A stretch of 22,567 bases of DNA. Source: a virus. Shown here piece after piece: positions 806 through 22,567 of this stretch. Below the pieces are notes generated by a model, which had not been told where the DNA came from, searched no databases, and saw only the letters and a list, made by a program, of their open reading frames with translations. A program made the position numbers and the translations under genes. Numbering within the stretch: position 1 is the first letter of the stretch; each line of letters begins with the position of its first letter. Location: IMG/VR virus record IMGVR_UViG_3300044815_000061, positions 1 through 22,567 of that record; one strand, given 5' to 3'.

Positions 806-1084
806 TCAAGCGGCGCGATCGCGCCGGTATCGTGTCTCCGCCAACAGGAAACCGAACAGCTTCCAGAGCTTGTTGACGGCTTGCTGGCGGGCCAGCCGCT
901 CGCCGATGCTGCGGTTGAAGGTTTCTTCCGACACGCAGCCGGACTCGCCGCGGACCGAAAAGCCGTTGTCCAGGGTCAGATTGCAGACCGTGATCGTTTT
1001 GTTGTAGCGAAGATATTCTTCGTTGGCGATGCGCGATTCGATTTCTTCCAGCGTCACCCGCTCGCCGCTTGGGATGATGTTCAT
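806..1084 (-). CDS. Phage gp49/gp66-like family protein
   Basis: This 92-residue protein begins MNIIPSGERVTLEEIESRI. Its central stretch, 'GESGCVSEETFNRSIGERLA' and 'RQQAVNKLW', matches my memory of the N4 gp49 / Sf6 gene 66 family (Phage_gp49_66), whose function is unknown. The reading frame is open further upstream to 1195, but the true start is the ATG at 1084. That ATG overlaps the stop of the scaffold-like gene as ATGA, so translation is probably coupled. The conserved block ends with a hydrophobic 'LWKLFGFLLAETRY' helix. The family call is by pattern only. Confidence 0.75.
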   Translation of the reverse strand: MNIIPSGERVTLEEIESRIANEEYLRYNKTITVCNLTLDNGFSVRGESGCVSEETFNRSIGERLARQQAVNKLWKLFGFLLAETRYRRDRAA

Positions 1085-1980
1085 CCGCCTGTCCGCCTTT
1101 TCAGCGCCGCCATCTGCAGCACGTATCGCTCGTAGCGGCCGGGCACCCAGTTGCCGCTTGGGTCTTTGTGCCCCTGCACGGGGATGTCCGGGCATGTAAT
1201 GTCGGCCGCCTCCATCTGATCGGCGGTCAGCCGCACCTGCTTGGCGGCGGTCGGCTGGGCCACCTGCGCCCGGCGGGTGACCGGCATGTCGGTCGGGTCC
1301 TGCCGCCGCCGCGGCGGGTCGATCGGCTCGGGATCGTCCTGCGCGGGCCGCCGCTGGGCCGCCCCCCGCGCCACGGTCTCGTCGATAATCTCGAAATATT
1401 CGGGCGAATCGACGGCGATCCCTTCCGCCAGGGCGATCTGATGTCCGGCAAAGGTCTTCTGCCGCACCGCCGGATCGTCCATGAAATCCGGGTTTTTCTT
1501 GATCCAGGCGCGTTGGGCCTTGCTGTAGCTACTGAGGTCGACCGTATCGGACGCTGGTTCGGGTGCCTTGGCGACGCGGAGCTTTTCGCCGGCCAGCCAC
1601 ACCTTGTACTGCTTGTCGCTGTGCTGTCTGGCGCGCAGCTCGGCCAGATTGTCCTGTACTTCGGCCACCTCATCGAAGCGGCCTTCTGCCATCGCGTCGG
1701 CCAGCTGCCGGCGCAGCACCAGCCCCTGGGCGTCAGCCGCCTCCAGCCGGGTGGTGACCGCCTGTTCCTCGGACTCAAACCGCGCCGATGTTGCATTGGT
1801 CACCTGCGCCTCGGCACGGCTGCGCCCGCTTCGCTCGGTTTCCAGCTGCAGCTTCAGCGCGCGGGTCGCCCGCTGTTCGGTCGCCAGCATCGCCCGCACG
1901 TCTTCGTCAGAGACCGTGCCGCCGTTTACGTGGCCGTCGGAGGGGCGGATATCGTCGTCGTCGTCAATGGCGTCAGACAT
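1081..1980 (-). CDS. Probable head scaffolding protein
   Basis: This 299-residue protein is highly charged and lacks membrane segments. It opens with an acidic run (DAIDDDDDIR), then a predicted coiled coil across roughly residues 30-140, rich in Glu, Arg, Ala and Gln. A more ordered region follows near 'SYSKAQRAWIKKNPDF', then a Pro/Arg-rich linker and a C-terminal segment ending 'GRYERYVLQMAALKRRTGG'. This is the layout of internal scaffolds of tailed-phage proheads, and the position between portal and expected capsid agrees. The ATG at 1980 has GGGGGAGG upstream and overlaps the previous stop by eight bases (ATGTCTGA). A minor head protein is the alternative. Confidence 0.6.
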   Translation of the reverse strand: MSDAIDDDDDIRPSDGHVNGGTVSDEDVRAMLATEQRATRALKLQLETERSGRSRAEAQVTNATSARFESEEQAVTTRLEAADAQGLVLRRQLADAMAEGRFDEVAEVQDNLAELRARQHSDKQYKVWLAGEKLRVAKAPEPASDTVDLSSYSKAQRAWIKKNPDFMDDPAVRQKTFAGHQIALAEGIAVDSPEYFEIIDETVARGAAQRRPAQDDPEPIDPPRRRQDPTDMPVTRRAQVAQPTAAKQVRLTADQMEAADITCPDIPVQGHKDPSGNWVPGRYERYVLQMAALKRRTGG

Positions 1981-2203
1981 TGCCGGCCTCCCCCAGTGAG
2001 CGGCGGAGAACCGCGTTGCGCCAGCGCGCGATGTGGTCGCGTTGTTCCAGACCGGCACCGGCGGCCAGGACGACGCGGGCGTGGTTCGCCAGCTCCGGGT
2101 CTTCGGTCAGTGCGGTGGCGAGGTCATCTGTCGCCTGACACGTGATGCCGGGCTGCAGGGCGGTCTGCTGCATGCAGAGCGCGAGGTGCTGTTCCAACGT
2201 CAA
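1973..2203 (-). CDS. Small phage hypothetical protein
   Basis: This 76-residue protein is mostly helical by composition (MTLEQHLALCMQQTALQPG..., then 'ELANHARVVLAAGAGLEQRD'). The start overlaps the stop of the GroES-like gene as ATGA, and its own stop overlaps the scaffold start by eight bases. Both junctions indicate a translated link in the head operon. No catalytic or metal-binding motif is visible. I do not recognise it; a head-assembly accessory role is suggested by place only. Confidence 0.7.
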   Translation of the reverse strand: MTLEQHLALCMQQTALQPGITCQATDDLATALTEDPELANHARVVLAAGAGLEQRDHIARWRNAVLRRSLGEAGNV

Positions 2204-2604
2204 AGGATCATGTCCGGCCGCGGCAGGATCAGATGAACGTCGACATCCTCGATCGACCGACAGCGCCGTTTGCCGATTTCCAGGCCGAAGGTGTCGCCGA
2301 CCGAAAACACGATCCAGTCGCCGACCTTGGGCTTTACCGCGCCGAAACGGTGGGTGTCGTCGTCGGCGAAGGCGATCGGCCCCAGCCCGACCACCAGACC
2401 GACCTTGCCCTGATACTTGTCCTCGTCGATCGTCTTGTCGGGCAGGTAGATACCGCCCGCGGTCGACTTCGGCCGGACGTAGACGGCGACCAGTACCCTG
2501 GCCCCCAGCACTGTCACGTTGTCCAGAAACGGGGTTATTTCACGAAGAATGGAGTCTTTCGGATCTTCGTCATGCACCATCGAAATGGCGTGCGCCATGA
2601 TCAT
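2200..2604 (-). CDS. GroES-like co-chaperonin (phage-encoded)
   Basis: This 134-residue protein resembles GroES/Cpn10. 'TVLGARVLVAVYVRPKSTAG' near residues 31-50 followed by 'GIYLPD' corresponds to the first strand and mobile loop (GroES has a KSAGGI loop). 'GKVGLVVGLGP' and 'KPKVGDWIVF' match the later barrel strands. GroES caps the host GroEL ring during folding; phage versions such as T4 gp31 allow large capsid proteins to fold. About 30 extra residues precede the domain, longer than the usual 95-100 residue family length. Starts at 2604, 2598 and 2580 are all in frame. A palindrome directly upstream may affect expression. Confidence 0.85.
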   Translation of the reverse strand: MIMAHAISMVHDEDPKDSILREITPFLDNVTVLGARVLVAVYVRPKSTAGGIYLPDKTIDEDKYQGKVGLVVGLGPIAFADDDTHRFGAVKPKVGDWIVFSVGDTFGLEIGKRRCRSIEDVDVHLILPRPDMIL

Positions 2605-3611: not shown

Positions 3612-3790
3612 CGGTCGATCTTTCCAATAATGATCGGTGTCATTCCGCGCGGGACTGCGCGGAGCTTCCCGTCCGGCAGCTCCCATACATCGGCGGTCTC
3701 ACTGTCGAATTCTGGTCGCCGCAGCCAGCCATAGGCGGAGCATGGCAGTCTGGTGTGTTTGACTGGTCCGTCTTCCGGGATCGTGGTCAT
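3608..3790 (-). CDS. 60-residue hypothetical protein downstream of the portal gene
   Basis: The protein begins MTTIPEDGPVKHTRLPCSAY and ends 'GMTPIIIGKIDR'. The frame is open far upstream inside the portal gene, but the real start is the ATG at 3790, which overlaps the portal stop as ATGA. The stop overlaps the next start in the same way. It is compact and soluble with a single Cys. The function is unknown. Confidence 0.65.
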   Translation of the reverse strand: MTTIPEDGPVKHTRLPCSAYGWLRRPEFDSETADVWELPDGKLRAVPRGMTPIIIGKIDR

Positions 3791-6012
3791 TTCTTCTTTG
3801 CCGCCGGCTTCGGTCTGGCCTTCGCCGCGGTCACCGCACTTTCGGCCTGCAGCTTGGCGACATGCCGGGCGGACGCGGCCGATGTCTCCGCCGCATGGTG
3901 GTCGCTCGCCGCCTTCACATCGGCCGTGTAGCGCGTGGTTTGGTGCTCGGCCGATGTGGCACGTTCCTCGCGGCTGTGCTCGGCCGCCAGTCGCAGCTGT
4001 TCGATCTGCAGCCGCGTCGCCTCGATGCCGGTCTGATCCCGCGCGATGTTCTGCCGCGCCTGCATCTCTGCCTGTTTGGAGGCGGTTTCGGCCTGCAGCT
4101 CGGTGGTGCGGTGCTGACTCTCCAGCTCCGCTTCGGCCGCCTTGCGCTGCATGTCGATGCCGTCCTGCTTGACCTTGGCGATCTTCGCCTGCGCCTCGGC
4201 CATGCGCGCCTGTCCGATCAGCGGATCGGGCGGTGCGGCGCCGCCACCAGCCGCCGGCATCGGCGCCGGCTGCGGCAAAACGAAGGCGTCGGCGTCGTTC
4301 ACACCGATGGTCTTCCAGGCTTTCTTGTGAACGGCGATGCGGTCGTACAGATCCGGGTTGGTGCCGGCGACGGTGACCAAAGCCGTAGCAAGCTGGATGC
4401 GGTGAATCTGGCTTGGCACATTCGGGTCGGATGCCGGCACCAGATCCAGATTGGCGAACTCGGCGGCCTTGCTCCAGGTGCGGACCGAACCGGGGATCTT
4501 GTTCAGCGCTTCGGGATTGTCGATGAAACAATCGCGCAACAGTGCCAGCTCGCGCGCCTGGGCACGGTGCAGCCGCTTGTGGACGGCACTCATGGTCTGC
4601 GTGCTGATCTCGATCATCGACATCATCGTGCCCACCGGCGTGTTGGTGCGCCCCTCGCCGACTTCCACCTCGGCCATGCCCGCCATCCGCATCGCGTCCT
4701 GGCCGATCGCCTGGGCCAGCGCCATGAATTGGGGCGAGACATCCTTGTACGGCATCGGCATCAGCGCTTTGCGGATGTCGTCGAATGAACCGATGTCGAT
4801 GTCCGGCCACTCGCCCGGCCCCGGTCGGATATCGTTGGTCGACATCCGCACACCCTTGGCCTTCATGCCGCCGGGCGCGTTGGCATACATCCCCGATGTT
4901 ACCAAAAGTCGCCAAATTCCCCGTAATGCCCGCGTTTGGTTACCCAGCAGGTGCATGAAGCCCAGGCAGAGGAAATTAAACGAGGGGATCATGCCGTAAT
5001 GCACGAAGCGCTGGCGGCGGTTGAATTGCGGGTCGCCGTCTTTCCAGCCACGCCGCAAACTGAGGACTTTAGACGACTGTTTGTCCAATGTGACGATATA
5101 GGACACCGGCAGATCCGGCACCTTGGGCAGCGAGACGCCGTAGTCCCCCAGGTCCAGATCCGCCGTCACCTCATAGATCTCGTGCGGCACGTCCTGCGGG
5201 CGCGCCATGATCCCACTGATGCCGGCGATCCGGCCCTGCGCCAGTTTGGCCGGGTCCATCGTCGGTTGCGCGGTCGGGAGCGGTTCATCCACCCAATCGG
5301 CGAATTTCTGCATCCGCCGCACCATCACATCGGTCATTTCGCTCCGATGGGTGACCCTGAGCGCGGTTTCCAGGTCGGTCGCGTCCTCAGATACGATCAG
5401 ATCCTCAATGCCGACCGTTTCGGACACAGGTCGGCGGCGCAGGGGGTGCTGATAGACCTTTTTGAACATATTTCCGCTGTAAAACAGCGAAAATAGCCCT
5501 CGATCGGTGTCTGGATAGTATTCTGGCGCGCCAGTTGTCAGATATGCGTTCATATCCGCCTGGAAAGCGGCGGCAAGCGCGTCAAGTTCCGCTGTATCCC
5601 CCCCTAAAGTCTGCACTTTGCAGGGTCCGCCGGCCGGCATCAGCTCCGCGCCGGCATTCGACTGGGCGCGCACCACCGCTTCCAGCAGCAGCGGGTGGCC
5701 GACCTTGCTGGTCTTCTCCTTTTTGTCGTCGTCAATCTGCAAACCCAGCAGATCCATGCCGTTGGTGTAGCCCTGGATGAAGGCGGAGCGGCTTTTGATG
5801 TCCATCTCGACGCCTTCAAGCAGCTCATTGGCGATGCCGGCCGTGTCCAGACCGTCCCGCAGCGCCAGATTTTCGTTGAAGCCCTTGCCGGCGTCGCGCT
5901 GCTTGCGCACCGCGGGCGCGGTGATGGTGACACCCCCATCCGGGTCGACGGTGACCACCGTCTCGGTGGTGCCCAGGCCACCGAAGCCCGGCACGCCGGC
6001 CATGTCGTTCAT
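3787..6012 (-). CDS. Phage portal protein with long C-terminal coiled coil
   Basis: This 741-residue protein is the likely portal, the dodecameric ring at one head vertex through which DNA is pumped. The central region 'RRGWKDGDPQFNRRQRFVHY' followed by 'GMIPSFNFLCLGFMHLLGNQ' resembles large portals of podo- and siphoviruses. The last 140 residues, from about 600, form a Gln/Ala/Glu-rich coiled coil ending in a basic 'KARPKPAAKKK' tail, comparable to the barrel or crown helices of P22-type portals. The ATG at 6012 has a GAAGG site. The gene follows a small terminal gene and is translationally coupled to the next. The family call is by pattern; size and place agree. Confidence 0.85.
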   Translation of the reverse strand: MNDMAGVPGFGGLGTTETVVTVDPDGGVTITAPAVRKQRDAGKGFNENLALRDGLDTAGIANELLEGVEMDIKSRSAFIQGYTNGMDLLGLQIDDDKKEKTSKVGHPLLLEAVVRAQSNAGAELMPAGGPCKVQTLGGDTAELDALAAAFQADMNAYLTTGAPEYYPDTDRGLFSLFYSGNMFKKVYQHPLRRRPVSETVGIEDLIVSEDATDLETALRVTHRSEMTDVMVRRMQKFADWVDEPLPTAQPTMDPAKLAQGRIAGISGIMARPQDVPHEIYEVTADLDLGDYGVSLPKVPDLPVSYIVTLDKQSSKVLSLRRGWKDGDPQFNRRQRFVHYGMIPSFNFLCLGFMHLLGNQTRALRGIWRLLVTSGMYANAPGGMKAKGVRMSTNDIRPGPGEWPDIDIGSFDDIRKALMPMPYKDVSPQFMALAQAIGQDAMRMAGMAEVEVGEGRTNTPVGTMMSMIEISTQTMSAVHKRLHRAQARELALLRDCFIDNPEALNKIPGSVRTWSKAAEFANLDLVPASDPNVPSQIHRIQLATALVTVAGTNPDLYDRIAVHKKAWKTIGVNDADAFVLPQPAPMPAAGGGAAPPDPLIGQARMAEAQAKIAKVKQDGIDMQRKAAEAELESQHRTTELQAETASKQAEMQARQNIARDQTGIEATRLQIEQLRLAAEHSREERATSAEHQTTRYTADVKAASDHHAAETSAASARHVAKLQAESAVTAAKARPKPAAKKK

Positions 6013-6462: not shown

Positions 6463-6493
6463 AACCACGTCATTGCTGGGGGGAAATCGTATT

Positions 6494-7201
6494 GTGAGCC
6501 TGATCCGCCGACTGACGGACTACGAAAACCCGAATTCCTGGGGATCGCGAATGCGACAACGCCGCAGTGTGGTGCTGAAGCGCCTGATTAGGGAGGCGGC
6601 CGAGCGGAATTGTGGGAATACGGTTCGCATCCTCGATATGGGTGGCGAAATCGGCTACTGGAAAACGTTCGGCGAGACTTTCCTGCGCCAGAATAGTGTG
6701 CATCTCACGCTGATCAACCTCGATTATAGCCGGTTGTCCCCACGCTCTCTGCCCGACCCGACGCTTTACACCGTGGCCGGCGGCGACTGCTGCGATCTGG
6801 CGGACCATATCGACCACTCATTTGAGATCGTGCATTCCAATTCGGTTATAGAACACGTCGGGGACTGGCAACGGGTGTTGGCCTTTGGCCGCAATGTCCG
6901 TCGATTGGCGCCCGCATATTTCGTCCAGACGCCGAATTTCTGGTTTCCAATCGAGCCGCATTTTGGCGCGGTGGGTTTTCAGTGGCTGCCCGAACCGGTG
7001 CGGGTGCGGATGGTCAACCGCCGCGCGATGGGGCAATTTCCCCAGGTCGGCGTCGATCGCGCGCATGAGTTTGTGCAAGAGGTGCGCCTGCTGACCGCGT
7101 GGCAGATGCGGCACGTTTTCCCCGACGCGCAAATCGTCGGCGAGCGGGTGTTCGGCTTCACCAAGTCATTCATGGCCGTCAGGCCGGGAGTGCCCGGATG
7201 A
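6494..7201 (+). CDS. Class I SAM-dependent methyltransferase (cassette B)
   Basis: This 235-residue protein has the Rossmann motif I 'RILDMGGEIGYW' at residues 45-56, an acidic strand end 'LINLDY' at 73-78, and 'SNSVIEHVGDW' at 115-125, the methyltransferase 11-type post-motif. The later 'FVQTPNFWFPIEPHF' followed by 'GFQWLP' resembles methyltransferases of surface-glycan clusters, so it may modify a small molecule or sugar rather than DNA. I chose the GTG at 6494 because GGGGGGA lies nine bases upstream; a TTG at 6473 is alternative. It reads against the head module and heads a three-gene plus-strand cassette, typical of a moron. The substrate is unknown. Confidence 0.8.
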   Translation: MSLIRRLTDYENPNSWGSRMRQRRSVVLKRLIREAAERNCGNTVRILDMGGEIGYWKTFGETFLRQNSVHLTLINLDYSRLSPRSLPDPTLYTVAGGDCCDLADHIDHSFEIVHSNSVIEHVGDWQRVLAFGRNVRRLAPAYFVQTPNFWFPIEPHFGAVGFQWLPEPVRVRMVNRRAMGQFPQVGVDRAHEFVQEVRLLTAWQMRHVFPDAQIVGERVFGFTKSFMAVRPGVPG

Positions 7202-8338: not shown

Positions 8339-9982
8339 TCAGACCCCGTACTCTTCGCGGACGGTCTGCTCGTTACCGTGAAACAACACTGCATCGTCGC
8401 GCTCCGCCTGGACTTCCGCAGTATGCTGCAGCAGCCCCATGTCGCGCAGCTTCTTGACCGCCGCCGACACGGTGTCGGTCAGGTCCTTCCAGCGCGACCG
8501 CGGGAACGTCGCGACTTCATCAATCACCATGTCCGCCCATTTCCGGGTCGGCGCATAAATCAGCCCGGCCGAGAAAGCCGGCGACGCCGCATGCAGCCGG
8601 GCGATCTTGTCGCCCTTCGGCACGTCCGCGAAAATGGTGAATTCCTCGGCGCGCATCAACCGGCGCATCTCCTGCATCACCGACAGACCGGACGCCTTGG
8701 ACTCGATCAGCACCCCGTCGGCCTTCCGCCGCCGCGCGGTGTCCAGCAGCTTCAGCACCAGCGCCCGCATCTCCATGCGCTCACGCCATGCCTCTAAAAG
8801 AATGATCTTGGGGTTCCTGGCCGTGTCCTGGAACACGCCCCAGACCGTGCAGGCCGACCAGTCGTTCTCTTCCTTCTCGGTGTACGCCGTGTCGGCCGCC
8901 ACCAGCACGTAATCCAGCGATGGATAGATCACCCGGCGCACGGTCCGCTGGCCTTCCTGGAAATCCCGCTCCCAGCTGTCTTCCTGCCCGACCGGCGGCC
9001 ACGCCAGCCACCACTCCCGCAGCACGATCCCACCACCGCGCATCGTCGGGATCTGCTGATACTGTCCGGCCCAGGCATGGGGACCGACCAAACGCCGCTG
9101 CTTGGCCGCCCAGCCGCTGTTGAACCGCTCGGGCCATAGCAACTCGCCGTCGACGCGACGCGGGTCGTCAAAGCCCAGGCCGGTGTGACAGTGCCGCCGG
9201 CTGTCGTACTCCAACGGCAACATCAGATGGACGAGGTTCGGGTCGTTCTCTTCCAGCAGGTGGCCGGACAGGTCGCCCTCATTCAGCCGCTGCATCACGA
9301 TCACCTCGGCGCCGAACACCGGATCGTTGCTGCGGGTCCGCCATACCTCGTCGTAGGCGCGGATCACCGCGGATCGCACCAGATCGCTTTCCACCTCGTC
9401 GGTCTTGTGCGGATCATCGATCAGCCGGATGGCGCCGCCTTTGCCCAGGCTTTCGGGGATGCCGGTGGAGATCCGGCTGCCACCGGCCAGGGTGTCGTAC
9501 TGACTTTGGTTGTCGCGGTCCTTGGCGATCACCACCCGCTGGCCCCATCGCTCCTGGAACCATTCGGTGCCGATCAGCCGCCGCGCGGTGACCCCATCGC
9601 CTTCGGCTTTGTTGGCACCGTAGCTGGCGCACAGGAAACGAACGCCCGGCCCGTGCAGCGGGAAATCCGGGTCGGTCGCCAGTATCCAGGTCCACACCGG
9701 CCACGCGATGGCGACCAAGTTGGTCTTGCCGAACCGGGGCGGGATGTTGATCACCAGCCGCTTGATCCGCCCGTCCGTAACTGCCTGCAAATGTTCGGCG
9801 ATGGCGTCCAGGTGCCAGCCAGGGACGAAAGTCGAACTGTCAAAGTAAGGCCACGCCCGGCGGAGGAACGCCGGCAGGCTGCGCTCGCACTCTAATTTGT
9901 ATTCCGACCACGCCAAAGCCTCGCGCACCAGAATCTCGGCGCGGATGGCGCTTGGCGCAGACTGGGACACGAAATCGACCAT
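8339..9982 (-). CDS. terL: Terminase large subunit (packaging ATPase and nuclease)
   Basis: This 547-residue enzyme cuts concatemeric DNA and pumps it through the portal into the prohead. The ATPase domain shows a Walker A-like 'PPRFGKT' at residues 81-87 and a Walker B 'IRLIDDP' at 185-191, with 'LASGGSR'-like coupling residues just before it ('LAGGSRIST', 165-173). The RNase H-like nuclease domain shows D364 in 'VAADTAY', E427 in 'LIESKASG' and D500/D503 in 'WKDLTDT'. Length is normal for the family. I chose the ATG at 9982; a TTG lies one codon earlier. The gene is divergent from cassette D. The small subunit is not adjacent but about 7.5 kb to the right. Confidence 0.93.
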   Translation of the reverse strand: MVDFVSQSAPSAIRAEILVREALAWSEYKLECERSLPAFLRRAWPYFDSSTFVPGWHLDAIAEHLQAVTDGRIKRLVINIPPRFGKTNLVAIAWPVWTWILATDPDFPLHGPGVRFLCASYGANKAEGDGVTARRLIGTEWFQERWGQRVVIAKDRDNQSQYDTLAGGSRISTGIPESLGKGGAIRLIDDPHKTDEVESDLVRSAVIRAYDEVWRTRSNDPVFGAEVIVMQRLNEGDLSGHLLEENDPNLVHLMLPLEYDSRRHCHTGLGFDDPRRVDGELLWPERFNSGWAAKQRRLVGPHAWAGQYQQIPTMRGGGIVLREWWLAWPPVGQEDSWERDFQEGQRTVRRVIYPSLDYVLVAADTAYTEKEENDWSACTVWGVFQDTARNPKIILLEAWRERMEMRALVLKLLDTARRRKADGVLIESKASGLSVMQEMRRLMRAEEFTIFADVPKGDKIARLHAASPAFSAGLIYAPTRKWADMVIDEVATFPRSRWKDLTDTVSAAVKKLRDMGLLQHTAEVQAERDDAVLFHGNEQTVREEYGV

Positions 9983-10044
9983 CAAACATCATTGCACGAA
10001 AGCAAAAACGGGCGCTCAATTTCATGACATTGGGGGCAAGTGCC

Positions 10045-13970: not shown

Positions 13971-14172
13971 CGCCGACATCCCCCTCATACCGGCGCGGGG
14001 GCGGGTAGAACTCGCGGAACATTGCCATGTCCGCGAGCGTGGGATTGTGATTTGCGAGCAGGTCGTCAAGCCGCTGAACGATCGCGTCTTTCAGTTCTGG
14101 CTTTACGCCAAGCTCGATGTGGTTCCTGGCCCATAGTAGAGCTGCTTTCAACACGCCGGGCTCAAGAGCCAT
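13963..14172 (-). CDS. Small hypothetical protein, block E
   Basis: This 69-residue protein begins MALEPGVLKAALLWARNHIE and continues 'LGVKPELKDAIVQRLDDLLA', largely helical, ending in a Pro/Arg-rich segment. The ATG at 14172 lies inside a 16-residue micro-ORF that starts at 14212. Upstream reading frame is open to 14295 but lacks support. The function is unknown. Confidence 0.65.
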   Translation of the reverse strand: MALEPGVLKAALLWARNHIELGVKPELKDAIVQRLDDLLANHNPTLADMAMFREFYPPPRRYEGDVGDV

Positions 14173-14212
14173 TGCAGTTCTTCTTGGTGGTCTTGGATAC
14201 GGGGTCAGACAT
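14162..14212 (-). other. 16-residue micro-ORF overlapping the next gene's start
   Basis: The frame ATG at 14212 to TGA at 14162 encodes MSDPVSKTTKKNCNGS. Its first 30 bases match the 5' end of the gene at 11903 with few changes. It overlaps the previous stop by eight bases and spans the next start at 14172. It may be a translational coupling leader or the remnant of a duplicated start module. Confidence 0.4.
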
Positions 14213-14504
14213 TCTGCATTCTCCCAAGTAGCCATTTCACCCAAGTCGCCGGGATGTCCCATCGTTGTTCGACGCGGAAATTGAGCTTCGCCCATTTTCC
14301 ATCGTCATCGAGTTTGTTCCACGGAACATCCACGCGCGGGTCACGGCTCGCCTCATGCCGGCGCAAATCCGCCATCGGGTTTTTGATCCATCGCCGGATC
14401 GACAGTTCACACCCAGATGTCAGACAGATGCCGTTCGCCATACCCCGATGAGATGCACTTCGGTCACAACCACAATGACATTTGGGTCGGCCGCGCCCGG
14501 TCAT
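14205..14504 (-). CDS. Phage protein with CHCGC and conserved helix
   Basis: This 99-residue protein contains 'GRGRPKCHCGCDRSASHRGM' near residues 3-22, followed by 'ANGICLTSGCELSIRRWIKN', a Cys-rich pattern that could bind Zn, then an acidic/basic helix. The ATG at 14504 is the working start; ATG at 14573 or 14441 are alternatives because no ribosome site is strong. Two other open frames overlap this start. The C-terminal 'WLLGRMQNV' overlaps the next start. The function is unknown. Confidence 0.6.
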   Translation of the reverse strand: MTGRGRPKCHCGCDRSASHRGMANGICLTSGCELSIRRWIKNPMADLRRHEASRDPRVDVPWNKLDDDGKWAKLNFRVEQRWDIPATWVKWLLGRMQNV

Positions 14505-14622
14505 TGGTTCTGCGTAGCGGACGTGCTCTATGGACGACGCAGCTTCGCCCCATCCACTGGTTCCGCCACGCATGGCTGCTTGCTTTCGGAGGCGACTTGC
14601 GCCCCAGTTTTTGTCGTTTCAT
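14464..14622 (-). CDS. Possible 52-residue basic protein overlapping its neighbour
   Basis: The frame begins MKRQKLGRKSPPKASSHAWR after an AAGGGGG ribosome site eight bases upstream. It continues with Arg-rich 'HRARPLRRTNDRARPTQMSL'. It overlaps the following gene by 41 bases in another frame. Basic composition of this kind arises readily in GC-rich shadows, but the ribosome site favours translation. Whether the product matters is unclear. Confidence 0.4.
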   Translation of the reverse strand: MKRQKLGRKSPPKASSHAWRNQWMGRSCVVHRARPLRRTNDRARPTQMSLWL

Positions 14623-14651
14623 AAATGTGGCCCCCTTGGAAAGCCGTCTTC

Positions 14652-15251
14652 TCAGACGGTCATGCGGTCTCCAGGCGCGTATACTGCCGCACCCCAACGC
14701 TGGAAACACTGCTCAAGCCGTTTCCTGTCCGGGTTATCCCCGTTATCCACAGGGCGAGCCGCGACCGGCGGCTGCATAAGAGTACTTGAATCTTTGTTGT
14801 ACTGGATTCCTCGCCGACTTTCGGTGAGCGGCACCATCGGACGAAAAGTGTAGGCATTCGAGGTGGTTAGGTTTTTGCCCCGGTCGACGCGGGTCCGGTT
14901 GATGACCTTGATCACCCCCAATTCCTCCAGGACGATGATCGCCAGCCCAACCGTCGAGGCGGCACATCTGGCCTCCTTGGCGATGGCGGCGTAGCTGGGG
15001 AAGCAGTTGCCGGTCGTCTTGCTGGCAAATTTGATCAGCGCCCGAAGCACGTTGACCCCGGTGCGCGTCAGAGGGCCGGGCGGGTGCTGCCCAGGCTCAC
15101 GCAGCTTGGCGCTGAGTTCGATCGCATAGACGATCAGCGCGTGGGCGATCCCCTTGGTCATCGGCAGCGAGTCGGGCAGGCCGTGTATCCGGTTGGCAAT
15201 CCGGCGGGCTTTGACCTGGGCATTGGTGCGCTTACGGCGGGTCGTCTTCAC
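14652..15251 (-). CDS. Winged helix-turn-helix protein, possible replication initiator or regulator
   Basis: This 199-residue protein has an N-terminal basic segment (MKTTRRKRTNAQVKARRIAN) and a winged helix over about residues 62-120: 'TRTGVNVLRALIKFASKTTG', then 'CFPSYAAIAKEARCAASTVG' with a turn and recognition helix, as in HTH_36 domains of plasmid/phage replication initiators and regulators. The C-terminus is Pro/Arg-rich and likely flexible. The start is GTG at 15251, with GGAG about nine bases upstream. It heads block E, so it may control the small-gene array or bind the right-end repeats. Confidence 0.7.
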   Translation of the reverse strand: MKTTRRKRTNAQVKARRIANRIHGLPDSLPMTKGIAHALIVYAIELSAKLREPGQHPPGPLTRTGVNVLRALIKFASKTTGNCFPSYAAIAKEARCAASTVGLAIIVLEELGVIKVINRTRVDRGKNLTTSNAYTFRPMVPLTESRRGIQYNKDSSTLMQPPVAARPVDNGDNPDRKRLEQCFQRWGAAVYAPGDRMTV

Positions 15252-15336
15252 GGCTTTTCTCCACCATGAAGTCGATCACCCTCACAAGGCCGTGAGCACA
15301 CCCCTCCAGCACCCCCAAGGGGGCTTGCGAAACCAC
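15232..15336 (-). CDS. Possible 34-residue protein overlapping the HTH gene start
   Basis: The frame runs from GTG at 15336 to TAA at 15232. It encodes MVSQAPLGVLEGCAHGLVRV then 'IDFMVEKSREDDPP', a plausible short amphipathic helix and acidic tail. It overlaps the HTH gene by 20 bases in another frame, a style seen across this phage. There is no strong ribosome site. Treat as tentative. Confidence 0.35.
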   Translation of the reverse strand: MVSQAPLGVLEGCAHGLVRVIDFMVEKSREDDPP

Positions 15337-15519
15337 CGGTGATCTGGGAATCTCTCGCTTGTCGAGGGCGTTAGAGATTCATCAGAATCTGCTTTGCTTT
15401 TTTGGGTGGTCTCCGGTTCTGCTGGGTAGGTCGGGCTTTTTGTGCTTTTCGGTCTGCTTTTCAGTGCGGGGGACCAACCTCAAATTCGGTTAGTTATCGC
15501 GGGATCGCGATCAGCAAAG
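15337..15519. promoter_or_regulatory. Leader region with two dyads between blocks F and E
   Basis: This 183-base gap precedes the HTH gene and block E. It holds ATCGCG-GGAT-CGCGAT (15496-15511), which includes the exact 10-base palindrome GATCGCGATC. A second hairpin is AGATTC-ATCA-GAATCT (15375-15390) followed on the plus strand by a T-rich run. An open minus frame of about 33 codons from a TTG near 15482 is lysine-rich but has no good start. Together this looks like a promoter/operator for leftward block E or a terminator for block F. Confidence 0.4.
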
Positions 15520-15741
15520 CTATCCAAGCACCGGTTGTTGCATCAAGGGGGTTTCTCCTAATTTGATGCGATTTTCTGCGTTGTCAGGGTCCAGAACCCG
15601 GCGCGACAGGAGGCAAAGGGTGCGCGAAGTGGCGTCCCGCGTGCCCGTCAAACGCTCCCATTCCGCCTGCTCAATCGCCGTCCAGGGGCCACCCTGCCAG
15701 AACAACAGCACCGCGTTGGCGAGTATTTTTGCGTTGTTCAT
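15520..15741 (-). CDS. Small hypothetical protein, block F
   Basis: This 73-residue protein begins MNNAKILANAVLLFWQGGPW and has 'ATSRTLCLLSRRVLDPDNAE', helical and charged. The start overlaps the previous stop by one base (TGATG). It ends block F before the 183-base leader. The function is unknown. Confidence 0.65.
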   Translation of the reverse strand: MNNAKILANAVLLFWQGGPWTAIEQAEWERLTGTRDATSRTLCLLSRRVLDPDNAENRIKLGETPLMQQPVLG

Positions 15742-15983
15742 CAGTGACTTCCCCCCTCAATCGACGCCTCGGCGCCGGCAATGCTGGCCTCCAGGCGCGG
15801 CAGCTGGCGGCGAACCGCGGCCAGCTTCTCACGCAACAAACGCCCCAGCTCGTCGTCCAATCTGGTCGCGGGATCGTTATCAAGCGCGTCGGCCAACATC
15901 GTCGCCGAAACCGCGATTAATCGCATCCGAGCCAGCGAAGCCTCCAAAATCAGATCCCTCAACACCTGCGAATCGGCCGCCAT
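15741..15983 (-). CDS. Helical hypothetical protein, block F
   Basis: This 80-residue protein begins MAADSQVLRDLILEASLARM and is almost all helix with repeating Leu/Ala/Arg/Glu ('LLREKLAAVRRQLPRLEASI'), a coiled-coil pattern. The ATG at 15983 overlaps the previous stop by one base, which selects it over the upstream frame extension to 16034. A small scaffold or adaptor is possible; the function is unknown. Confidence 0.65.
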   Translation of the reverse strand: MAADSQVLRDLILEASLARMRLIAVSATMLADALDNDPATRLDDELGRLLREKLAAVRRQLPRLEASIAGAEASIEGGSH

Positions 15984-17438: not shown

Positions 17439-17894
17439 TCAGCCATTTTGTTCCGGCTTCGCATCGGATAGGCTGCCTTCGATCAACAGCAACTCAGGCG
17501 GTTCGGCCGGGTTCGGTCGGTCCTGCTCGCGGCGCAGCTGGTCAAGCCGGCGGCGCAGTTCGTCGATCGGCACGTTGCGCAAGTCCCCGGCGCGGTGGGT
17601 GACGTCCACGGTTGAGCGCTCGCGGTATTTGTCAGGCTTCAAGCCTTTCAAAAGGAAAATCATCAGCAGGTCCGAGGACTTCATAGCGCGACGCTGGGCT
17701 TCGTCCTCTAGTGCCTCAGTGCCAAGCACCAGGGCCGCCTCCCAGTCAGCAGCGAAACCGGCATCCTCATTGCGCCAAGCGTAAATGGCCGGTCGGTGCA
17801 ACGCGTGAATGTCACACGTCAAAGTCACGTTGCCGGTTTTGCCCAGCGTGTCCAAAAAAGCAGCACGGATTTGACTGGTTCTGATCGTTCGCAT
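17439..17894 (-). CDS. terS: Probable terminase small subunit
   Basis: This 151-residue protein matches the small-terminase pattern: an N-terminal helix-turn-helix ('RAAFLDTLGKTGNVTLTCDI', then 'RPAIYAWRNEDAGFAADWEA'), 'LEDEAQRRAM', and the typical 'LLMIFLLKGLKPDKYRERST'. The C-terminus is acidic and Pro-rich. Small terminases bind the packaging site and recruit the large subunit. The ATG at 17894 is chosen; an ATG 25 codons earlier is in frame but lies in the divergent leader. It is unusual that terL is about 7.5 kb to the left. A DNA-binding regulator is the alternative. Confidence 0.7.
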   Translation of the reverse strand: MRTIRTSQIRAAFLDTLGKTGNVTLTCDIHALHRPAIYAWRNEDAGFAADWEAALVLGTEALEDEAQRRAMKSSDLLMIFLLKGLKPDKYRERSTVDVTHRAGDLRNVPIDELRRRLDQLRREQDRPNPAEPPELLLIEGSLSDAKPEQNG

Positions 17895-18057
17895 TTCTAA
17901 CCCATTACCCCAAATGCGTCCGATCACGCCACGGAATTGAAGGCCAATGGTCACAGTGTCGTGCAACACATGACTGTGTGTCCGTTGTCACATGACATGA
18001 TGTCGCATATCGCGTATGTAGTCGTCGGCTAACCAATCAACCGAAGGAGACGACACG
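17895..18057. promoter_or_regulatory. Divergent promoter/operator region
   Basis: This 163-base gap separates leftward terS from the rightward operon. It holds TGTCA-CA-TGACA (17986-17997), GACAT-G-ATGTC (17994-18004) and CATA-TCGCG-TATG (18006-18018). A possible rightward promoter is TTGTCA (17985-17990) with TATCGC 17 bases on, which these dyads would overlap. The rightward leader has a GAAGGAG ribosome site. It is the natural place for a genetic switch; binding by the XRE protein encoded at 21899 is possible. Confidence 0.45.
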
Positions 18058-21091: not shown

Positions 21092-21552
21092 CCAAACCCA
21101 AACCCAAACCCAGAAAACCAGACACCCGCGTGCGGGGCCTGCAAGGGGTCGCCAGAGGCTTGCCGACGCCGGCTGACCACAGGGCAGGGATAGATGCCCA
21201 AGTGGCCGCCTGCAACCTCCCTGGGCAGCCCTGCGTGTGGGTCCGCTCCATACGCCTGGAGTGCGACACGTACAGCACCATCAACGCGGGGCATTTTTTG
21301 AGCGTGTGGCAGGTCGACGACGGCGAGTGGCGCGTCACCATCGAAGTGGCTGGGCAGGAAATCGTCATCGCCCACGCCACGACACCCCAGCACGGGATGC
21401 GCGCGGCGAATGCCTGGGCCGCTGGCCACGACTCCAGCCTGATCAAACTACGCCGGGCGATGCGCCATGGGGCCAGCACCTGGATCTTGGACGAAGCCGC
21501 CCTGGCAGCCAGCGCGGTGAATACAAACCAACAGGGGGACCCGACGCCATGA
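21088..21552 (+). CDS. Phage hypothetical protein (154 aa)
   Basis: This protein begins MTKPKPKPRKPDTRVRGLQG, a basic disordered opening, then a beta-rich middle 'LSVWQVDDGEWRVTIEVAGQ' and 'EIVIAHATTPQHGMRAANAW', then a helix 'SSLIKLRRAMRHG'. The ATG at 21088 overlaps the previous stop as ATGA. The frame is open upstream but lacks protein-like content there. The function is unknown. Confidence 0.7.
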   Translation: MTKPKPKPRKPDTRVRGLQGVARGLPTPADHRAGIDAQVAACNLPGQPCVWVRSIRLECDTYSTINAGHFLSVWQVDDGEWRVTIEVAGQEIVIAHATTPQHGMRAANAWAAGHDSSLIKLRRAMRHGASTWILDEAALAASAVNTNQQGDPTP

Positions 21553-21902
21553 CTCGCAACTACCATCCCGACACCGCCCTGCGCATGTCGATCGAACGGC
21601 AGGTGATCAAGCGCCTTGTCCAGTCGGCCCTGGCCGCGGGCTATGCCATCTCGGTCAACGACGGGGAGGAAATTACCGAACGGCGCTGCACTGACGTCGG
21701 CCGGATCATGGCCGCGGTGATGACCACCGACGAGGATTACCTGCACATCCACGCCGCCGGCCAGACGCACCGGTTCGGCTGGGTGCGGCTGATTTACGGC
21801 AACGACGGCTGGGACGTGATCTGTGACTACACCACCAACCTGGAACCGCTGATGGCGCCGGTGACCGCCGTGGCTGACCGGCTGGAAGCGCGGTTCGGAT
21901 GA
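21549..21902 (+). CDS. Conserved phage hypothetical protein (117 aa)
   Basis: This protein begins MTRNYHPDTALRMSIERQVI and has a helical N-terminal half, then 'HRFGWVRLIYGNDGWDVICD' followed by 'YTTNLEPLM', a strand-rich motif common in small phage proteins of unknown role. The start overlaps the previous stop as ATGA with GGGGGAC upstream. It precedes the XRE regulator by an ATGA overlap. Confidence 0.75.
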   Translation: MTRNYHPDTALRMSIERQVIKRLVQSALAAGYAISVNDGEEITERRCTDVGRIMAAVMTTDEDYLHIHAAGQTHRFGWVRLIYGNDGWDVICDYTTNLEPLMAPVTAVADRLEARFG

Positions 21903-22081
21903 CCGGGCGTGAACTGCGGGCTGCGATCGCCGAACGCGGGCGCACCCAGCGGGAATTTGCCGAGCACATCGCCGTATCCCCCCGCCAAGTGGTGCGCTGG
22001 TGCAAGCAGGATGCCGTGCCGCGGTATGTCGAGCTGGTGCTGAAGACCCTGCCGCGCCGGGTGCTGGTGGACGCGCGTTAG
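21899..22081 (+). CDS. XRE/Cro-type helix-turn-helix DNA-binding protein
   Basis: This 60-residue protein begins MTGRELRAAIAERGRTQREF and continues 'AEHIAVSPRQVVRWCKQDAV'. This is a full XRE domain: 'RTQREFAEHIAVSPRQVVRW' contains the two helices of the motif. Proteins of this size commonly act as Cro-like repressors binding short inverted repeats as dimers. It ends the rightward block and overlaps the last bases of the convergent gene. Targets could be the dyads at 17986-18018. Confidence 0.8.
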   Translation: MTGRELRAAIAERGRTQREFAEHIAVSPRQVVRWCKQDAVPRYVELVLKTLPRRVLVDAR

Positions 22082-22281
22082 CCGTCCCACCGCCCCGCTG
22101 GCGGTGCCTCCCCCCCACCCCCCGCCAAAGAGGGGCGCGGAAGCGCTGGCGGGGGCGGGATCAGCGGGCACAGGGTCGAATCCAGGTCGCACAGCACCCG
22201 ATGCAGCAACGCCAGTGCCGGCTCATCGCCCTCCAGGTAGCGCACCAACTCACGCACCACCGCTGCGGTCCGGTCAGACAT
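22078..22281 (-). CDS. Small hypothetical protein, right end
   Basis: This 67-residue protein begins MSDRTAAVVRELVRYLEGDE and has 'ALALLHRVLCDLDSTLCPLI', helical, then a Pro/Gly-rich tail. It converges on the XRE gene with four overlapping bases. The start sits just after one TTACCACCT repeat (reverse strand AAGGTGGTAA), so that element may control it or serve as its ribosome site. The function is unknown. Confidence 0.6.
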   Translation of the reverse strand: MSDRTAAVVRELVRYLEGDEPALALLHRVLCDLDSTLCPLIPPPPALPRPSLAGGGGEAPPAGRWDG

Positions 22282-22567
22282 GGGGTCTTACCACCTTTTG
22301 GGGTATTACCACCTCAAGCCTGAAAAAAACACAGCAATATCAATAAGATTACCACCTCGTACCACCTCCACCCCCCCCACCCACATCCTATAGAAAACCA
22401 CCACAAGCAAATACGACGTTGCGTATGTGTGTACTCGGGTATGTTACCTACTACCTCTCTATTCCCTCATTCTCTATAGAATCTCACTTTAGGTGGTAAG
22501 GTAGTAAGAGGTGGTAATATCCCAGTGGAATCATGGCATTACCACCTCTTACCACCTCACCCAAAAC
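22282..22567. repeat. TTACCACCTC repeat cluster in both orientations
   Basis: No gene is visible in these 286 bases. TTACCACCT or its close variant occurs at 22288-22296, 22305-22315, 22348-22358, 22360-22368, 22538-22548 and 22549-22558, and reversed at 22491-22499 and 22508-22518; degenerate copies lie at 22444-22457 and 22499-22507. Copies at 22508 and 22538 face each other across 19 bases. A/T-rich stretches and a C-run lie between. This layout fits iterons of a replication origin or a multi-site operator; it continues to the window edge. Confidence 0.75.

Follow-up and report, generated by a model that had tools for sequence, protein, structure and literature searches.

The repeat array at the right end of a 22,567-base tailed-phage fragment from IMG/VR (hereafter the window, the whole stretch of DNA analysed) is probably the iteron replication origin of this phage, and it would be served by a VapE/D5-kind helicase encoded just beyond the right end; we assign this reading, which is based on sequence comparison, a probability of roughly 80%. 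Established in this study are the array, the association of such arrays with VapE/D5 helicases in unrelated records, and the co-variation of the repeat with a helicase hairpin.

The right-end repeat array

The last 286 bases of the window (22282-22567) are non-coding and contained seven exact copies of the octamer TTACCACC in both orientations, as well as eight TACCACC heptamers, also in both orientations; the other 22,281 bases contained two exact octamers and five heptamers. Dinucleotide shuffles (n = 5,000) contained 0.04 exact copies on average and at most two, none reaching seven, and 8-mer repetition this frequent occurred in none of the other sampled 286-base windows of the record. Together with two variant copies, these results bear out the initial annotation, which had described at least eight copies in both orientations within non-coding DNA.

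Four copies in forward orientation come first, followed by ~120 bases of spacer, the reverse copies and, last, two further forward copies. The left set (22288-22366, forward) included exact plus-strand TTACCACC copies at 22288-22295, 22306-22313 and 22349-22356 (iterons 1 to 3) and a copy with one mismatch, GTACCACC, at 22359-22366 (iteron 4, plus strand). The right set (22492-22556, reverse and then forward) included exact minus-strand copies at 22492-22499 and 22510-22517 (iterons 5 and 7), a degenerate minus-strand copy, TTACTACC, at 22500-22507 (iteron 6), and exact plus-strand copies at 22539-22546 and 22549-22556 (iterons 8 and 9). Two close direct pairs (22349/22359 and 22539/22549, each 10 bp apart) were confirmed, as was an inverted pair previously placed near 22508/22538, whose arms (22495-22518 and 22538-22561, iteron 7 lying in one of them) were 92% complementary. 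The array also reaches the edge as described: 11 bases follow iteron 9 before the record ends, and 9 follow the final copy of the 10-base word. At its other side, the array begins just outside the start (22281) of a minus-strand open reading frame (ORF, 22078-22281).

The spacers had been called A/T-rich, which held in that the AT content of the array stretch exceeded that of the rest of the record (54% vs. 38%), but only moderately: the spacer was 54-59% AT, a modest contrast. The candidate melting region between the two iteron sets (22388-22489) was 59% AT. GC skew, which had been suggested as a check, did not switch clearly at the fragment end and was uninformative on the origin. In the window iterons, as in those of L017 and L011-L015, the base preceding TTACCACC was C or A rather than G. 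We detected no second array elsewhere in the record, and comparison of the array DNA to named phages and plasmids yielded only short, chance-level matches.

Similar arrays in unrelated records

Viral contigs were scanned for the motif alone, as two octamers at a distance of ten bases and blind to genes. The 50 loci retrieved were split by copy number, with dense loci defined as at least five copies in 500 bp, and their records were then searched for VapE (PF05272). VapE was present in 10/13 dense-array records versus 1/34 sparse records (p = 6e-7). Six dense records were near-identical, and after these were collapsed the association persisted (5/8 vs. 1/34, p = 4e-4). Dense, mixed-orientation TTACCACC arrays occurred in unrelated phage contigs and in cyanobacterial and Nitrospira DNA, usually beside and sometimes near a primase-helicase of the VapE or D5 type (SF3). 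Arrays in Leptolyngbya and in a Nitrospiraceae bacterium adjoined VapE-type genes, and other array neighbours included a D5_N/DUF5906 helicase (L035), a Prim-Pol (L036) and a P-loop ATPase (L051). In L017, which is also GC-rich, the left genes read toward the array and VapE is convergent on the right.

Record G019 had a similar array of forward set, spacer and reverse set, directly flanked by a homologue of the window gene at 21549-21902 (plus strand; phrog_22565, function unassigned), and a CHC2-VapE primase-helicase 6 kb from the array. A homologue of the same window gene was matched by tblastn in L055/L063 (37.5% over 144 aa), and most relatives of this gene had neither array nor VapE. A search with the G019 primase-helicase matched itself alone, and an alignment of VapE from nine families proved too diverse for use as a query. 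The initial annotation had suggested an initiator-bound origin or operator with its partner gene possibly just outside the fragment; the origin part of this suggestion is supported, and the support is entirely comparative, drawn from other records, because the partner gene would lie outside the record.

Arrays at VapE genes

Starting from VapE rather than from the motif, we analysed 80 enterobacterial prophage loci related to the L043 VapE, 78 of which had enough downstream sequence, and in ~76 of the 78 the 3' end of VapE was accompanied by an array in mixed orientation (L155 and L156 were weak). The repeat sequence varied among these loci, natural iteron classes including GTTACCACC, GTAACCACC, GTACCAACC and GTACCCACC. 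Nine loci used GTTACCACC, with 4-5 exact TTACCACC copies within ~560 bp and 0-2 in the remainder of the locus, among them E. coli prophages of strains Sx181-0-1, A34 and XH993, and the GTTACCACC and GGAACCACC classes were both present in complete E. coli chromosomes. Named phages with an array at the VapE 3' end were APSE-1/2, Yersinia phage YeP4, Kc259 and PS3, with shorter arrays in Jess A and ACF1. The same test did not find an array at the VapE gene of Mica, Aval, VarioGold, Javan100 or BM127P2, leaving five of ten named VapE phages with no obvious array at the gene. Given these five phages and a Pseudomonas VapE set in which arrays were weak or uniform, and which was too poor for a second test of the residue-to-base code described below, the occurrence of an array at VapE is not a universal rule.

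VapE and an array also occurred together on circular plasmids, among them pLAO97 and a Serratia plasmid of 12.9 kb, on which VapE was the sole replication-type gene listed in a plasmid gene table that is itself incomplete. The small circular enterobacterial plasmids L265, L266 and L267 (NZ_OX291476, NC_012209 and NZ_OP242302) carried VapE and an iteron array around an AT-rich stretch and have been typed only as non-mobilizable; they are probable VapE-type replicons.

Co-variation of the helicase wing and the iteron

Among 64 loci with at least three exact copies of a 9-mer, we distinguished 30 C-terminal hairpins and 10 iterons, and none of the 30 hairpins occurred with two iterons. The hairpin, predicted to belong to a winged helix, spans the C-terminal ~17 residues of the helicase; we numbered its residues with the Gly of the GY motif as 0. 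In helicase pairs 97-99.8% identical elsewhere, hairpin and iteron differed together. The VapE 3' ends of L096-L174 likewise combined near-identical VapE with differing hairpins and iterons, as if swapped as one cassette.

Near one-to-one pairs of residue and iteron position ranked at the top by mutual information. Residue 7 paired with iteron position 1 (Arg with G in 25/25, other residues with T in 5/5), residue 12 with position 2 (Lys with G, Gln with A, aliphatic residues with T), residue 5 with position 3 (Arg with G; Gln, Leu or Tyr with A; Thr, Ser or Val with T; one Gln with C), residue 15 with position 4 (Ile or Val with C or A), and residue 16 with position 6 (Trp with C in 24/24, Phe with A in 6/6). 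A simple code over 11 iteron classes fit 55/55 checks, and 1 in 100,000 permutations was equally good; both figures should be read in light of the code having been formulated post hoc, after data inspection, and of class GTCCCCACC having been based on near matches. The APSE phages, which were outside the training set, fit four of five code checks, their Trp pairing with A, and L041, L084, G010, L017 and G019 were compatible with the code as judged by eye.

The loci compared are related, and given that wing and array are physically adjacent and thus linked, their association may partly reflect linkage. Arguing against linkage alone, the Phe-A/Trp-C switch recurred in no fewer than two backgrounds, GTACC and TAGAC, with GTCCC as a less secure third, and the residue/base chemistry of the code is common in protein-DNA contacts. 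These patterns suggest that single helicase amino acids choose the bases of the repeat. Whether VapE-type initiators generally read their iterons through a near one-to-one residue-to-base code in the C-terminal winged-helix wing is, in our judgement, evenly poised. Under such a code, Arg at residue 7 would read G at iteron position 1; Lys, Gln or an aliphatic residue at residue 12 would read G, A or T at position 2; Arg, Gln or Thr at residue 5 would read G, A or T at position 3; and Ile or Val at residue 15 and Trp or Phe at residue 16 would correspond to C or A at positions 4 and 6, respectively. For the window phage, the code would predict a helicase hairpin with Thr, Ser or Val at residue 5, a residue other than Arg at residue 7, and Trp at residue 16. 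Wing and origin would be exchanged jointly between otherwise identical prophages, and therefore origin specificity could be predicted from sequence. We found no description of a wing/iteron code in the portion of the literature surveyed.

An AlphaFold2 model (mean pLDDT 78) predicted a winged helix with the code residues in the hairpin. The sole clear sequence relative of known structure was SaPI PriRep1 in complex with DNA (7pds), which matches the VapE domain of the array-linked helicases. A Foldseek search with the winged-helix model returned no significant match, and VIA-align Z values were middling (6.4 for 6qpq and 5.9 for PriRep1 7pds); the winged-helix fold call is generic as a result.

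Gene context and alternative readings of the array

Family matches of the Pfam/PHROG type identified a portal (3787-6012), a large terminase (8339-9985) and a small-terminase-like gene (17439-17969) in the window. Also present were an N4 gp49/Sf6 gene 66 family protein amid the structural genes (806-1195, minus strand), a GroES/Cpn10-like gene adjoining them (2200-2604, minus strand; Pfam E = 4.5e-7, PHROG co-chaperonin GroES), and a weak methyltransferase-like match (6473-7201) on the plus strand, opposite to the flanking structural genes. The left end of the window is truncated as well, given that the structural module of a 37 kb relative extends beyond the homologue of window base 1. A search of the record detected no VapE in the window, which stops at the point where such a gene would be expected, and we found no record extending the fragment beyond its right end. 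The structural relatives L006-L008 had neither array nor VapE and are themselves fragments.

The last plausible gene of the window is the short minus-strand ORF at 22078-22281 (67 aa), which points away from the array and had no family match. Beside it lies a plus-strand gene for a small XRE-like helix-turn-helix (HTH) protein of 60 aa (21899-22081; Pfam HTH_31/HTH_3 below cut-off, PHROG transcriptional regulator E = 5e-7), a candidate regulator near the array. The array could thus be an operator through which a phage regulator, such as this HTH protein, controls the minus ORF and a gene beyond the right end, consistent with the 200 bp between HTH gene and array, with the position of the array upstream of the minus ORF, and with mixed orientations, which fit operators too. 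However, in unrelated records the arrays track VapE/D5 helicases, not HTH genes, and often lie past the 3' end of the helicase gene; the repeat sequence co-varies with the helicase hairpin; and the small HTH genes that do occur near other VapE arrays share only generic similarity with that of the window. We therefore consider an operator improbable.

The sole recognisable initiator-like gene in the record encodes an O-like/HTH_36 winged-helix protein (14652-15251, minus strand) with PHROG replication-initiation O-like/HTH matches, possibly a second replication or regulatory protein. Its use of the array as an origin appears very doubtful: lambda-type iterons are found inside or beside the O gene, whereas the array is 7 kb distant, and TTACCACC arrays elsewhere accompany VapE/D5 helicases, not O-like proteins. 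A lambda-type ori was rejected, with no repeat family in 14000-15800 around the O-like gene and the array so far removed. That the array is a secondary cis site, either a copy-number or incompatibility locus or a second origin site as in phage P4, which has two separate iteron sites (ori and crr), with the true origin elsewhere, would suit the 6 kb between array and VapE in G019, but the window array has the two-set and spacer layout of complete origins and no second array was detected in the record, making this reading very unlikely.

A model for the proposed origin and comparison with known systems

Under the iteron-origin reading, an SF3 primase-helicase of the VapE/D5 kind would be encoded directly right of the fragment and would bind the TTACCACC iterons via its C-terminal winged-helix domain. 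After assembling on the two iteron sets, it would open the intervening AT-richer spacer and load there as the replicative helicase. For the window phage, we infer this neighbouring helicase, its repeat binding and the start of replication at the array. Several points count against the origin reading: the helicase gene would lie outside the window, the spacer is not strongly AT-rich, the G019 array is distant from VapE, and the O-like protein could be an initiator of another type.

The phage P4 alpha protein is a primase-helicase initiator with its own iteron site and would work in a similar way. The P4 site is mentioned in a study on phage-inducible chromosomal islands (PICIs), according to which AT-rich DNA at PICI origins is flanked by two sets of iterons, and a PICI pri-rep-ori was tested in a plasmid (PMC6092414). 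As described in this study and in one on SaPI Rep (PMC7581432), SaPI/PICI origins served by Rep (Pri-Rep) resemble the window in having short iterons in two sets around AT-richer DNA, and their array lies by a helicase of the VapE or D5 type that binds the iterons through its C-terminal domain; in SaPI Rep, this domain recognises iterons directly downstream of its own gene (PMC7581432). The window differs from SaPI/PICI elements in being a tailed-phage fragment with another iteron sequence, a predicted helicase gene off the contig, and an only moderately AT-rich spacer. SCCmec Cch2, an initiator helicase related to SaPI Rep, binds through its C-terminal domain and unwinds direct repeats beside its own gene (PMC7581432); its AAGTG iterons differ from those of the window in sequence and number, and it belongs to a Staphylococcus element, not a phage.

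At the VapE 3' end, APSE-1/APSE-2, YeP4 and Enterobacteriaceae prophages carry iterons in mixed orientation that surround an AT-rich stretch. The APSE (GTAACAACC) and YeP4 (TAGACAACC) iterons differ from those of the window, and the window phage has unrelated structural genes. The spacer at 22388-22489 is placed like the stretch between iteron sets in G019, APSE-1/2 and YeP4, and its placement also resembles that of the inter-set stretch of PICIs (PMC6092414).

Our results point to a replication origin as the probable function of an array that lay unannotated at the end of a contig, and predict the product of its missing neighbour gene. VapE, often annotated only by its misleading 'virulence-associated' name, recurs together with an origin-like array across phages, prophages and small plasmids. 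This type of origin is itself already known, and the residue-to-base code would be the surprising part, if upheld. The natural wing/iteron pairs represent a ready panel for investigating the evolution of origin specificity and the basis on which winged-helix initiators select DNA.
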